Below the pieces are notes generated by a model. It ran no database searches, was not told the DNA's origin, and saw only the letters and a program-made list of their open reading frames with translations. From positions 1-64,000 of the forward strand of contig JAGLEV010000009.1 in NCBI GenBank assembly GCA_023144895.1: a DNA stretch of 64,000 bases, given 5' to 3'. Every line of letters begins with the position of its first letter. The first letter of the stretch is position 1. Made by a program: the position numbers and the translations under genes. Origin of the DNA: Thiotrichaceae bacterium. Its GTDB lineage: Bacteria > Pseudomonadota > Gammaproteobacteria > Thiotrichales > Thiotrichaceae. Shown here in pieces: positions 4,295 to 9,266 of this stretch.

Positions 4295-5662
4295 ATGGCA
4301 AAGGCAAAAATTGAGTACAATTGTCAAGAATGTGGTGCGATTCATAATAAATGGAGTGGGCAATGTGGTGACTGTAAAGAGTGGAATTGCCTCATTGAGG
4401 TAGCACCACAGACAGCGGGTTCAGCAAAGACTGCGAAGAACCCTCGTTTTGCTGGCTATGCAGGTGTGCAACAAGGTGTGCAATTACTGGGCAGTGTAAA
4501 TTTAGAGAAGACACCACGTATTATTACTAAGATGAGTGAACTTGACCGCGTACTCGGTGGTGGCTTAGTGCGTGGCTCAGTAACATTGATTGGTGGTGAT
4601 CCTGGTATTGGAAAATCAACCATTTTATTGCAAGCACTAGATAGCTTGTCACAATTAAAGTGCTTGTATGTTTCAGGTGAGGAATCATTACAACAGATTT
4701 CTATGCGTTCACAACGTTTGAATTTAGCGCTTGATGATCTCAAGCTACTGACTGAGACAGGGATAGAGCGCATTCTGACAATAGCGCAGCGAGAGCAACC
4801 AGAGCTTATGGTGATTGACTCTATTCAAACGATTTACACCGAGCAACTTAATTCAGCACCTGGTTCCGTCAGCCAGATACGTGAATCGACAGCGCAACTT
4901 GTTCGTTATGCTAAACAAACGGGTACTTCATTATTTATTGTGGGTCATGTGACAAAGGAAGGGACACTAGCAGGGCCACGAGTGCTGGAGCATATGGTGG
5001 ATACTGTCTTGTATTTTGAAGGTGACCCTGGTAGTCGTTATCGTATTTTACGTGCAGTAAAAAATCGTTTTGGTGCAGTGAATGAGATTGGTGTTTTTGC
5101 GATGACCGATAAGGGTTTAAAAGGAGTGGCTAATCCTTCTGCTATTTTTTTGGCAGGGCATGAAGAGAATGTGGCAGGTAGTGTGGTGATGGTAACACGC
5201 GAAGGCACACGACCTATTTTAGTTGAAGTGCAAGCACTTGTTGATGAAAGTCATGGGGGGAATCCACGTCGAGTGACTTTAGGTTTAGAGCAAAATCGGA
5301 TGGCAATGCTGTTAGCTGTATTGAATCGTCATGGAGGAATTTCTATGTATGACCAAGATGTTTATGCTAATGTGGTTGGCGGTGTGAAAGTGACAGAAAC
5401 TGCATCAGACTTGCCTCTATTATTAGCAGCATTGTCAAGTTTTCGTAATAAATCAGTGCCGTCAGACTTGGTTATTTTTGGGGAAGTTGGCTTGGCTGGA
5501 GAGGTGAGACCTGTTCCTAATGGTGAAGAACGTTTAAAAGAGGCAAGCAAGCATGGCTTTAAACGTGCTATCATACCGACCGGAAATCTACCACAGAAAC
5601 CAATCAAAGGAATGGAAGTGCTTGGAACACACCGAATTGAAAGTGCATTACAGTATTTGTAG
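4295..5662 (+). CDS. radA: DNA repair protein RadA (Sms)
   Basis: RadA is a RecA-like, DnaB-type branch migration helicase that helps process recombination intermediates. The order of domains is canonical: a four-cysteine zinc finger at about 10-27 (CQECG and CGDC), Walker A GGDPGIGKST near residue 100, the RadA signature KNRFG near 254, and a C-terminal Lon-protease-like domain that lacks the protease dyad. It has 455 residues, the normal length. The ATG follows directly after the corB stop codon, indicating translational coupling. Confidence is high. Confidence 0.97.
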   Translation: MAKAKIEYNCQECGAIHNKWSGQCGDCKEWNCLIEVAPQTAGSAKTAKNPRFAGYAGVQQGVQLLGSVNLEKTPRIITKMSELDRVLGGGLVRGSVTLIGGDPGIGKSTILLQALDSLSQLKCLYVSGEESLQQISMRSQRLNLALDDLKLLTETGIERILTIAQREQPELMVIDSIQTIYTEQLNSAPGSVSQIRESTAQLVRYAKQTGTSLFIVGHVTKEGTLAGPRVLEHMVDTVLYFEGDPGSRYRILRAVKNRFGAVNEIGVFAMTDKGLKGVANPSAIFLAGHEENVAGSVVMVTREGTRPILVEVQALVDESHGGNPRRVTLGLEQNRMAMLLAVLNRHGGISMYDQDVYANVVGGVKVTETASDLPLLLAALSSFRNKSVPSDLVIFGEVGLAGEVRPVPNGEERLKEASKHGFKRAIIPTGNLPQKPIKGMEVLGTHRIESALQYL

Positions 5663-5791
5663 GTAGAAAAAGGGCTTGAATATGTAGTTACTCAGTTTAT
5701 TATATTGGTAATATTTTCCTAAGATTATGATGTGGCTGACATCTTTAAAGGTGCATACCGCTTGTTTATTTTAAACTTGACTCCTTTGATG

Positions 5792-5800
5792 TGATATAAT
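5792..5800 (+). promoter_or_regulatory. Extended -10 promoter for the DEAD-box-like gene
   Basis: TGATATAAT at 5792-5800 is a perfect extended -10 element (TGn plus TATAAT). A -35 at the right distance is poor, as expected for an extended -10 promoter. Transcription from about 5807 would give a leader of nearly 200 bases before the TTG start at 6001. That is long for this genome and recalls leaders of cold-shock helicase messages. Confidence 0.6.
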
Positions 5801-5966
5801 AGGTTTAGAAGTGTTACGCGTTTGCTAGTAGCCCAGCCTCATTATTCATAATAAAAGGCACATATTTCTAATAGATACCTTAATCGTTTGACGATTTTTA
5901 GGGTCATATTTATCTTAGCAACGCTATTTCTTATTCATTCAGAAGATTTTTAACCTTATCGTTAAG

Positions 5967-5991
5967 CCCGTGCTTTCTAGGCACAGGGGAG
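5967..5991 (+). promoter_or_regulatory. Hairpin that sequesters the ribosome binding site of the DEAD-box-like gene
   Basis: CCCGTGC at 5967-5973 can pair with GCACAGGG at 5981-5988 (one bulged A), with a seven-base loop. The 3' arm contains most of the Shine-Dalgarno AGGGGAG at 5985-5991, which lies nine bases before the TTG at 6001. Folding would hide the ribosome binding site. Temperature or protein control is an inference. Confidence 0.5.
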
Positions 5992-6000
5992 ATTTTAATT

Positions 6001-7587
6001 TTGTCGTTTCAAAGCTTTAACCTTAATGAGGATTTAGCCGCATCATTGAATGCTGCCGGATATGAGAATCCGACTCCTTTGCAAAAATCACTAATCCCTC
6101 TCGTTAACGAACGTAAAAATGTCGTTATTGAAAGTCAAACAGCAGCTGGCAAAACAGGGGGGTATCTTATTCCCTTGACAAGCTATTTGCTGAATAATCC
6201 TATTGATGATTATCGTGGCTCAAGAATATTGATATTGACCTCACGCCGAGAGCGAGTGAATCAAATCAATTACACCTTAAAGAAGATTATAAAAGACTTT
6301 AATCTACGCCTTGGATTTATTAGTGGTGGTCGTCCTTACCAACACCAAATGAGGTTATTAAAACGTCCTTTGGATTTTTTGATTGCAACACCTGGGCGAC
6401 TGGATGATCTAGTTAAAAATAACAAAACAGATTTTTCTAATATTGAAGCATTAGTCATTGATGACTTTTCAATTATACATAAGCAAGGTCTCCATTTACT
6501 GTGTGAACAGATCTATAAGCAAGTGAAAAGAGAATGTCCTGTTATTACCTTTATTGAGAAAAACAGTGAATCTAAAGCCTTCTTAGATAGTTTTGTTAAA
6601 GACAGTGAAGTTGTTGAAATTGAGGAAGAAAAGAATCCTTTAGTCAGTACTCCTCAAGAAGTTTATATTACGGATGATTACACACATAAAGTGGCATTGA
6701 TGGATTTAATGCTCGATGACTTAGAAGGCAAATCATCATTAATCTTTGTGTCAACGAATAAAGCAGCGACGGGGTTGCAAGAATCACTATCTAACCATGG
6801 TCACCCCAGTATAATAGCGAGTCAGAGTAAAGATAACGAACGCTTTACTGAGGATGATTATCCCATATTAATTGTGAGTGATCAGGTGGATAGTAATATT
6901 CATACCGCAGGATATAAAAATATATTTCACTTTGACCTACCAAGACAAGTTTCTATTTTCCAAAGTAGAGTGGTTAATCGTGGTTGGGAAGATCTGGAGC
7001 GACCCGCTGCTATTTTAGTTGACCCTCATAATCGTGTCACCTTAAAGAAGATAGAGGCTCAAGCAGGTGAAGGCTTAACGCAAAATCAGGTGCCTGGTTT
7101 AGAGCCAATGAATATTTATATTTCAACACCTTTGCTTTCCTTGGGAGGAAAGAAGAAACCGAATCGCTCACAAAAAGGGGGGCGTAGACAAAACAGCAGT
7201 GGGGGGCGTAATAATCCACAGTCAAAAAATAATAATCGTCAAAAGCAACATAAGGGGCAATACGGTCGTCTTAGTGGTGGGATACATCGAAAAAATAGTC
7301 GAACTAAAGTAAAAACTAATAGCCCTAGAGGTAATGCGAGATTCACCAATAGAAACAATAGTAATAGTAATCAGAACCAAGGTGGGAATCAGGGTAATAA
7401 TCCGATGTTCTCAAGTGGAGAAGATGAAAGTTTTGCTAATGAGGTGAAAGCATTGCAAGAAAAAGAAGCAAAGCAGAGCAAAGTCGTTATTCGCTATCGT
7501 GATCGTAAAAGTAGGCGCTCAATGACTTCTCAATCATCGCCAGAGTCAGAGTTAGAGCCACCAGAAAGTGGGAACTCTGCTGATTAG
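6001..7587 (+). CDS. Degenerate DEAD-box RNA helicase-like protein with N/Q/R-rich tail
   Basis: The first 350 residues follow the DEAD-box helicase fold. The Q motif GYENPTPLQ (20-28), a P-loop SQTAAGKT (45-52), GG at 109-110 and TPGRL (130-134) are preserved. Motif II is DDFS (154-157) in place of DEAD, motif III is not SAT, and motif VI, usually HRIGRTGR, reads SRVVNRGW near 322-329. ATP hydrolysis and unwinding are therefore doubtful, while ATP and RNA binding may persist. Residues 385-490 form a disordered tail rich in N, Q, R and G, similar in composition to the RNase E tail encoded further on. The start is TTG behind a strong but hairpin-covered Shine-Dalgarno. It stands alone as a transcription unit. 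A scaffold or RNA-chaperone role is inference. Confidence 0.85.
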   Translation: MSFQSFNLNEDLAASLNAAGYENPTPLQKSLIPLVNERKNVVIESQTAAGKTGGYLIPLTSYLLNNPIDDYRGSRILILTSRRERVNQINYTLKKIIKDFNLRLGFISGGRPYQHQMRLLKRPLDFLIATPGRLDDLVKNNKTDFSNIEALVIDDFSIIHKQGLHLLCEQIYKQVKRECPVITFIEKNSESKAFLDSFVKDSEVVEIEEEKNPLVSTPQEVYITDDYTHKVALMDLMLDDLEGKSSLIFVSTNKAATGLQESLSNHGHPSIIASQSKDNERFTEDDYPILIVSDQVDSNIHTAGYKNIFHFDLPRQVSIFQSRVVNRGWEDLERPAAILVDPHNRVTLKKIEAQAGEGLTQNQVPGLEPMNIYISTPLLSLGGKKKPNRSQKGGRRQNSSGGRNNPQSKNNNRQKQHKGQYGRLSGGIHRKNSRTKVKTNSPRGNARFTNRNNSNSNQNQGGNQGNNPMFSSGEDESFANEVKALQEKEAKQSKVVIRYRDRKSRRSMTSQSSPESELEPPESGNSAD

Positions 7588-7796
7588 CATCTTACCTTGC
7601 TTAAAATATCTATAACGAAATGGCTAAATTTTTATAACTATGCACTATGTAGTCTTTCAGGATCGATACTTTACACTGGGTTATTACGTTATTACAAACC
7701 TGCTTTACTATAGCGTTTGTGATAAAGTGCTTTTATTAGCATAGACATTTTTATAATAATAGAGTTAAGATTTTGTTTGGGATTTTTACAAGTATC

Positions 7797-9266
7797 ATGG
7801 GCAAACGATATTTTCTACTGACGATTATCGCAGTATGTGCCATTAGTCTGGCATCATATAGTTATTTTTCATCATTCACTCGAGCAGAAATTGGCTCTAA
7901 GAGTGTGCTTCCTAATGGTGGAGTTTTAGTCTGGACGAAGTGCTGGTTTGAAGCCGCAGAGAATATTGAATGTGCAAAATTTCATACGGCTCCACGAAAA
8001 AAAGGTGGGGTCTCTGATTATATCCTCCCTGTAGTTGTTTTGCGTTATACAGGTTATGGGCGTAAAGAGGATCCTGTACTTAATATGGCGGGTGGTCCTG
8101 GCTCTCCTGCAGGGCTGGACAGGCAGCATGTCTTTGATCACTGGAATGGCTGGTTTAAGAGGATTAACTTTAAGCGTGATATCATTCTGTTCGATCAACG
8201 TGGTGCAGGTCTGAGTGAGCCTAGTTTAAGTTGTGACTCCTATAATAAAGCGGTAAAGGAAAGTATTTTTAAGGGTTCTTCTGAAAAGGGTGCTCATGAG
8301 ATTATTAACACTTGCTATCAAGAGATGAAGCAAAAGGGTGTGCCTGTTGATCAACTAAGCACCTTACATAGTGCAGGTGATATTCGGGATATAATGGATG
8401 CCCTGCATTATAAAAAATGGAATTTATACGGGGTTTCCTATAGTACGCGCTTAGCAATGGTTGTTGAGAGTCAAAATCCAGAGCGAGTGAGGACTCTATT
8501 ACTTGATTCAGTTTATCCTATTTCCCAGCATTTCTTTAAAGATTGGCCTTTATTGCTCAATAAAAGCTTAGAGCGTTTATTTATATTTTGTAAAAATAAC
8601 TCTCAGTGCGCAACGGATTATGGTGATCTTCAGACATTATTATGGAAAACAATAGCCGATCTACAGAAAAACCCATTACGGATTCAATTACCTAATATTA
8701 AAGAGGAAATTATTTTCGATGATGAGTTGTTTATTGGATTTTTATTTGGTACACAGTACGAATCAAAAAGCTTAAAAATATTGCCAGAAGTCATTTATGA
8801 TTTTAGTCGCCGTGATGTTAGTAATTTTCAAAAATATATTTCTTATTTTATTCATTCACGTATCGATAGCTCTAGTAGTGAATTAGTTCACCGTGCAGTA
8901 GAGTGTCAGGATAATTCCATTTTGTCTCGGCAAGAAATGACAAAAATATATAAGAATTTTCCTAAATTAACGCCTTATCTTATTCGTGAAGTGGGTATGT
9001 GTGAATCTTGGAAAGATAGTCATTTTTTTGAATTAGTCACGCTCCCTGATTCTAAAGTTCCAGTCTTGTTGTTTGCAGGTGAAGATGACCCTGTAACACC
9101 GATTGAATGGGCGGAGTCAATACGTGGAAAGTATACTAATACAATAATATTTAGTTTTAGAGATATTTCTCATAGTGTCATGGATGCTAAGGATTGCGCA
9201 ATAGATCTGTATGGTCATTTTTTGGATGATCCTTTGACTTATCCTTCTGCTGATTGTCGTGAATAA
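7797..9266 (+). CDS. Exported alpha/beta hydrolase (tripeptidyl aminopeptidase / proline iminopeptidase type)
   Basis: An N-terminal hydrophobic segment (about residues 4-25) looks like a signal peptide or anchor. The body is an alpha/beta hydrolase. GGPGSP, an oxyanion-hole motif, lies near residue 96, and DQRGAGLSEP near 135 is typical of proline iminopeptidase relatives. The nucleophile elbow GVSYS follows near 213. The C-terminal part has AGEDDPVTP and SHSVMD, supplying the acid and histidine as in the TAP-like C-terminal domain. Substrates are probably short peptides in the periplasm. A TTG at 7773 in frame is an alternative start, but ATG at 7797 puts the signal segment nearest the N-terminus. 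It is convergent with the type II secretion genes. Confidence 0.85.
   Translation: MGKRYFLLTIIAVCAISLASYSYFSSFTRAEIGSKSVLPNGGVLVWTKCWFEAAENIECAKFHTAPRKKGGVSDYILPVVVLRYTGYGRKEDPVLNMAGGPGSPAGLDRQHVFDHWNGWFKRINFKRDIILFDQRGAGLSEPSLSCDSYNKAVKESIFKGSSEKGAHEIINTCYQEMKQKGVPVDQLSTLHSAGDIRDIMDALHYKKWNLYGVSYSTRLAMVVESQNPERVRTLLLDSVYPISQHFFKDWPLLLNKSLERLFIFCKNNSQCATDYGDLQTLLWKTIADLQKNPLRIQLPNIKEEIIFDDELFIGFLFGTQYESKSLKILPEVIYDFSRRDVSNFQKYISYFIHSRIDSSSSELVHRAVECQDNSILSRQEMTKIYKNFPKLTPYLIREVGMCESWKDSHFFELVTLPDSKVPVLLFAGEDDPVTPIEWAESIRGKYTNTIIFSFRDISHSVMDAKDCAIDLYGHFLDDPLTYPSADCRE

Follow-up and report, generated by a model that had tools for sequence, protein, structure and literature searches.

A DEAD-box protein of Thiotrichaceae that has probably become a conserved pseudohelicase

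Introduction

The Escherichia coli DEAD-box protein SrmB acts in the assembly of the 50S ribosomal subunit. Part of its role is antitermination, by which it guards against premature termination in the leader of rplM, and SrmB in which DEAD is replaced by AAAD acts as a deletion in vivo (PMC6736130). Pseudohelicases, in which the helicase fold is kept while the catalytic motifs are lost throughout a conserved orthologous family, are rare in the open-licence literature: the word was found in three papers, two of which have it in the title and deal with the eukaryotic Utp25 and the Deinococcus DNA protein PriA. Utp25 belongs to the SSU processome and has a non-catalytic role in ribosome assembly (PMC9539457), while PriA of Deinococcus radiodurans has been shown biochemically to be a bacterial DNA pseudohelicase (PMC4504706). 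We found no earlier report of a bacterial DEAD-box pseudohelicase in the open-licence literature; such a protein is likely, though not certain, to be previously unreported.

Here we describe a protein encoded in a 64,000-nucleotide stretch of Thiotrichaceae DNA (contig JAGLEV010000009.1; "the window" hereafter means this whole stretch). Like Utp25, it keeps the DEAD-box fold, has lost the catalytic motifs and is conserved, and by analogy it may have a role at the ribosome; however, Utp25 is eukaryotic, essential and more diverged, whereas the Thiotrichaceae protein comes from bacteria, has a parent group of active helicases that can be identified, and retains GKT and TPGR. With PriA it shares the loss, throughout a lineage, of helicase motifs in a family whose other orthologues are active, although PriA, which retains binding, is a DNA replication-restart protein and not a DEAD-box RNA helicase, and the Thiotrichaceae case is read from sequence. 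SrmB and the window protein have in common an ADD..HK motif and a C-terminal extension, but SrmB requires its DEAD motif in vivo and the window protein has none.

We consider it probable that the window protein is a conserved DEAD-box pseudohelicase. Its forerunner would have been an intact RhlE/SrmB-like gammaproteobacterial helicase that ceased to hydrolyse ATP in the common ancestor of the Thiotrichaceae; selection would have preserved the protein from then on, and it would now serve as an ATP- and RNA-binding scaffold or chaperone. With a likely active parent, one apparent loss and many sequenced descendants, a bacterial case would be a means to test the function of a helicase core that does not unwind, and to learn what in the parent's role does not depend on catalysis. 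Some Thiotrichaceae genomes consist of one complete contig (3-5 Mb), and the family may therefore include culturable members.

Results and Discussion

Gene, fold and motifs of the window protein

The gene and its domains are located as follows:

6001..7587, + strand: putative pseudohelicase gene, 528 aa, TTG start, stop TAG (open reading frame, homologues and start-codon survey)
6001..6615, + strand: RecA1 domain, residues 1-205 (alignments, structure model and dN/dS)
6643..7068, + strand: RecA2 domain, about residues 215-356 (alignments and structure model)
7123..7584, + strand: disordered basic tail, residues 375-528, pI 11.2 (pLDDT mostly <50)

On the evidence of sequence and structure model, the DEAD-box ancestry of this protein is certain. 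It has two RecA domains and the Pfam DEAD domain (PF00270, E = 8e-25); in the AlphaFold model both RecA domains are mostly above pLDDT 80 and the tail is disordered, and the top PDB matches of this model in Foldseek are DEAD-box proteins. Sequence comparison with the PDB places Vasa and CshA on top. The top NCBIfam match is SrmB (E = 1.7e-51), but the score of 175 bits against the curated cut-off of 507 means that the protein fails as an SrmB equivalog (NF008394). Conserved alignment columns in the tail mark two short motifs, around RQKQHKGQYGRLSGGIHRK and VVIRYRDRKSRR, and tails are strongly basic across the pseudohelicases (pI 10.5-11.5).

The Q motif (GYENPTPLQ) and ATPGRL are present together with GKT, in agreement with the preliminary description, which had reported the Q motif and TPGRL as intact. 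Motif Ib is likewise retained. It had also taken the P-loop to be intact; this holds for GKT but not for the loop as a whole, since Gly48 is changed to Ala and AxTGxGKT is no longer canonical. The losses it had listed are all seen in the window sequence: motif II reads DDFS for DEAD, FIEKN replaces SAT at motif III, and motif VI is SRVVNRGW in place of HRIGRxxR, without the arginine-finger pattern. Two changes come in addition to that list, namely an altered motif Ia (PTREL to SRRER) and the disappearance of motif V (ARGxD). According to the structure model RecA2 has kept its fold, and it has lost motif V and the motif VI arginine fingers. Set against an active DEAD-box RNA helicase, the protein has the Q motif and GKT and is deficient in motif II, in SAT and ARGxD, and in motif VI.

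Origin and intact relatives

A profile of the family was run over 369 genomes of the class. Outside Thiotrichaceae its best matches score 250-297 bits and are intact RhlE/SrmB/CsdA-like helicases of other Gammaproteobacteria, whose nearest NCBIfam models are NF053636 (CsdA-Psy1082) and NF008394 (SrmB), both below cut-off. All outside matches inspected, i.e., the best ones, 40 weaker ones and two new ones from a 399-genome phylum-level sample, have an intact DEAD; no pseudohelicase was found among these matches, which reach down to about 205 bits. The intact group resembles the pseudohelicases in its signatures (IVGGxPYPPQxRLLxRPLDLLVATPGRL, DFSxLE, ADDxxHK and PGLEP, the last in the linker), in the RecA1/RecA2 layout, in the frequent use of non-ATG starts and in a hairpin at the ribosome-binding site. 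It differs in keeping DEAD, SAT, ARGxD and HRIGRTGR, all of which the Thiotrichaceae have lost.

A second profile, built on the intact group, gives its own members about 560-780 bits. Thiotrichaceae genomes reach at most 508 bits, which is the level of RhlE (E. coli RhlE, 504), so that no intact member of this helicase group turned up among the Thiotrichaceae genomes searched. The preliminary description had proposed looking for an intact deaD or rhlE elsewhere in the genome; the window's genome has six other intact DEAD-box helicases, matching E. coli DeaD, DbpA, RhlB and RhlE (three). Its term "paralogue" is probably wrong: judging from the signatures and the distribution, the pseudohelicase is probably orthologous to an intact RhlE/SrmB-like helicase and has taken its place, rather than being an extra copy. 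Catalysis apparently disappeared from the active helicase a single time, in the ancestor of Thiotrichaceae.

In the tree, the pseudohelicases form one clade (support 100/100), whose stem branch measures 2.19 changes per site. Topologies joining them with RhlE are rejected (p 0.001), while those joining them with E. coli SrmB (p 0.27), or with paralogues instead of the proposed intact group (p 0.37), are not. Because the stem is long, the tree does not fix the exact sister of the clade; the case for orthology is made by the signatures in common and by complementary presence, and not by the topology. The two topologies that are not rejected would accommodate an origin by duplication of another helicase, or of an E. 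coli-type SrmB, with the intact group lost or never present independently; the catalytic loss would stand and the parent would differ. We regard this origin as unlikely, as the signatures PYPPQxRLLxRPLD and PGLEP belong to the intact outside group, which also has in common with the pseudohelicases the non-ATG starts and a leader hairpin in the same place.

Conservation of retained and lost motifs

The survey sample comprised 63 genomes of the order, all from one family, Thiotrichaceae. A homologue is present in 61 of them, and the two genomes in which none was found are MAGs that are 80-89% complete. These figures come from a homology search of the genomes and not from a scan of genome contigs by peptide pattern, which returned one locus only. 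The pseudohelicase is essentially single-copy; one genome (G057) has two overlapping pseudohelicase fragments on separate contigs (L079 and L081), representing a second copy or an assembly duplicate.

Motifs were counted in 62 extracted loci, with unreadable sites left out of each denominator; motif II could be read in 60 of the 62, from 59 genomes. GKT occurs in all 62 loci and the Q-motif glutamine, Q28, in 61/61, while the P-loop AxTGxGKT has become [ST]Q[ST]A[AS]GKT, with the Gly48 to Ala change fixed (61/61 readable loci). Motif II of the family is DD[LMFY][STA]: the pair D154-D155 is found in 60/60 readable loci and DEAD in none of them, a consistency that leaves no room for chance. SAT at motif III and the HRxGRxxR arginine fingers of motif VI are absent from every one of the 62 loci, and the letters ARG appear within the motif V region of a single locus. 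Comparing the intact relatives with the pseudohelicases, 13 sites have switched from one fixed residue to another (for example E155D, G48A, P81S, T82R and L85R), and new invariant residues have been gained in the pseudohelicases. A helicase fold thus accompanies the loss of catalytic motifs throughout a conserved orthologous family, as in a pseudohelicase.

The change of the motif II glutamate to aspartate beside an intact GKT does not, taken alone, prove that ATPase activity is lost. The protein could be an unusual but still active ATPase, in which Asp155 stands in for the catalytic glutamate and an arginine finger is supplied in trans or from elsewhere. The nucleotide site is indeed under selection: invariance across the family extends to GKT, the Q-motif glutamine, the leading Asp of motif II, D294 in motif V, and R323, which is the first Arg of motif VI. 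However, both arginine-finger columns are variable and rarely Arg, SAT and ARGxD have been lost family-wide, and RecA2 holds 22 near-invariant sites against 57 in the intact relatives. We consider such an activity improbable. In RecA1 the corresponding numbers are 72 in the pseudohelicases and 76 in the intact relatives; this half is about as conserved as in the intact relatives and RecA2 is not, which points to a retained nucleotide- and RNA-binding half and a relaxed second half.

Selection on the protein is visible in the core dN/dS, which is mostly 0.01-0.09 between closely related pairs (RecA1, 0.01-0.06). The maintenance of the 528-residue protein, first suggested by its open frame, is borne out by this purifying selection on a family-wide loss, and comparison with orthologues, proposed at the same time as a check, gave DD at motif II in all readable loci and the loss of motif VI in every locus. 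The idea of a decaying gene, or of a sequencing or assembly error, may draw on the long stem branch and the many helicase residues lost, but recent decay or error is ruled out by an open frame with the same substitutions in 59 readable genomes, a dN/dS far below 1 and the gain of new invariant residues, so that its probability is negligible. The loss of catalytic residues together with maintenance by selection is strongly supported by these sequence comparisons.

Leader, start codon and hairpin

The region upstream of the gene contains two features:

5663..6000, + strand: intergenic leader, 338 nt, between radA (4295-5662) and the gene; no Rfam match
5966..5989, + strand: predicted hairpin CCCGTGC...GCACAGGGG in the leader; its 3' arm extends into the Shine-Dalgarno GGGGAG, immediately upstream of TTG

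A tRNA is the only known RNA family detected in the window. TTG is the start codon in 61/61 readable pseudohelicase loci; the 27 intact relatives use TTG (13), GTG (10) or ATG (4), and the RhlE genes of this bacterial family, as far as they allowed a check, all have ATG (5/5). That TTG is invariant although one base change would give ATG, and that the relatives mostly have TTG or GTG, suggests selected weak initiation.

In the intact relatives (L086-L111), a 7-pair hairpin immediately precedes the ribosome-binding site, some 10-35 nt upstream of the start codon. Covariation supports it, with 16 cells showing two-sided changes compared with 6.3 in shuffles, and 0 of 500 shuffles score as high. 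Every slid register scores lower, a comparison that flatters the hairpin because the structure was read from the same sequences. At the same position, when a narrow segment is scored, the pseudohelicase leaders show a modest excess of structure (mean z -0.61, versus -0.03 and 0.08 at control positions), while their hairpin z-scores over the full leader segment are about zero (mean -0.25); the hairpin is not clear in every genus. The regulated leader of the preliminary description stands to the extent that TTG is invariant and the hairpin abuts the Shine-Dalgarno; the covariation, however, is that of the intact relatives only. Expression of the pseudohelicase may be translationally controlled via the weak TTG start and the hairpin beside the ribosome-binding site.

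Proposed function

In the preferred reading of a pseudohelicase kept by selection, an intact RhlE/SrmB-like RNA helicase would have lost ATP hydrolysis in the Thiotrichaceae ancestor and the protein would have been retained. RecA1 would still bind ATP, as a structural or regulatory ligand. RNA would be bound by a remodelled RecA1 surface (SRRDRV, GRPYQxQMRLxRRPLD and TPGRL) and by the basic tail, the fixed basic segment SRRDRV, GRPYQxQMRLxRRPLD having newly arisen or been strengthened. The protein could then act as a scaffold or chaperone in an RNP process, most likely large-subunit ribosome assembly or an SrmB-type event at an mRNA leader, and might recruit one of the intact helicases. The most likely function suggested by sequence and analogy is that of an ATP- and RNA-binding scaffold in ribosome or RNP assembly, where the ribosomal part derives from the parent family and the Utp25 parallel.

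An RNA clamp without unwinding is plausible. It is less likely to be of the classic ATP-locked type, since motifs V and VI, with the RecA2 residues needed for closing such a clamp on ATP and RNA, are gone. An SrmB-like role by ATP-driven unwinding appears unlikely for the Thiotrichaceae protein. If the ancestral function was SrmB-like, it must have been altered, since SrmB with AAAD acts as a deletion. A more complete scenario can be put forward tentatively, although it is less likely than not that all its parts hold together: the family-fixed pseudohelicase would have replaced its active parent and would now serve ribosome assembly as an RNA scaffold that senses ATP, its expression being under the control of an obligatory UUG start and of a ribosome-binding-site hairpin inherited from the mRNA of the active helicase.

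Genomic neighbourhood

No conserved operon or neighbourhood was found; neighbours vary between genera and give no functional pointer. Since they differ, the setting has changed while the pseudohelicase gene was kept. The gene lies near radA in three genera (g1, g7 and g8), as it does in the window, and in many loci of genera g2-g4 (L050-L074) the neighbours were read by eye as rpsB, tsf and methionine aminopeptidase. Downstream in the window, at 7773-9266, there is a TTG-start open reading frame of 497 aa, a putative alpha/beta-hydrolase as judged by eye.
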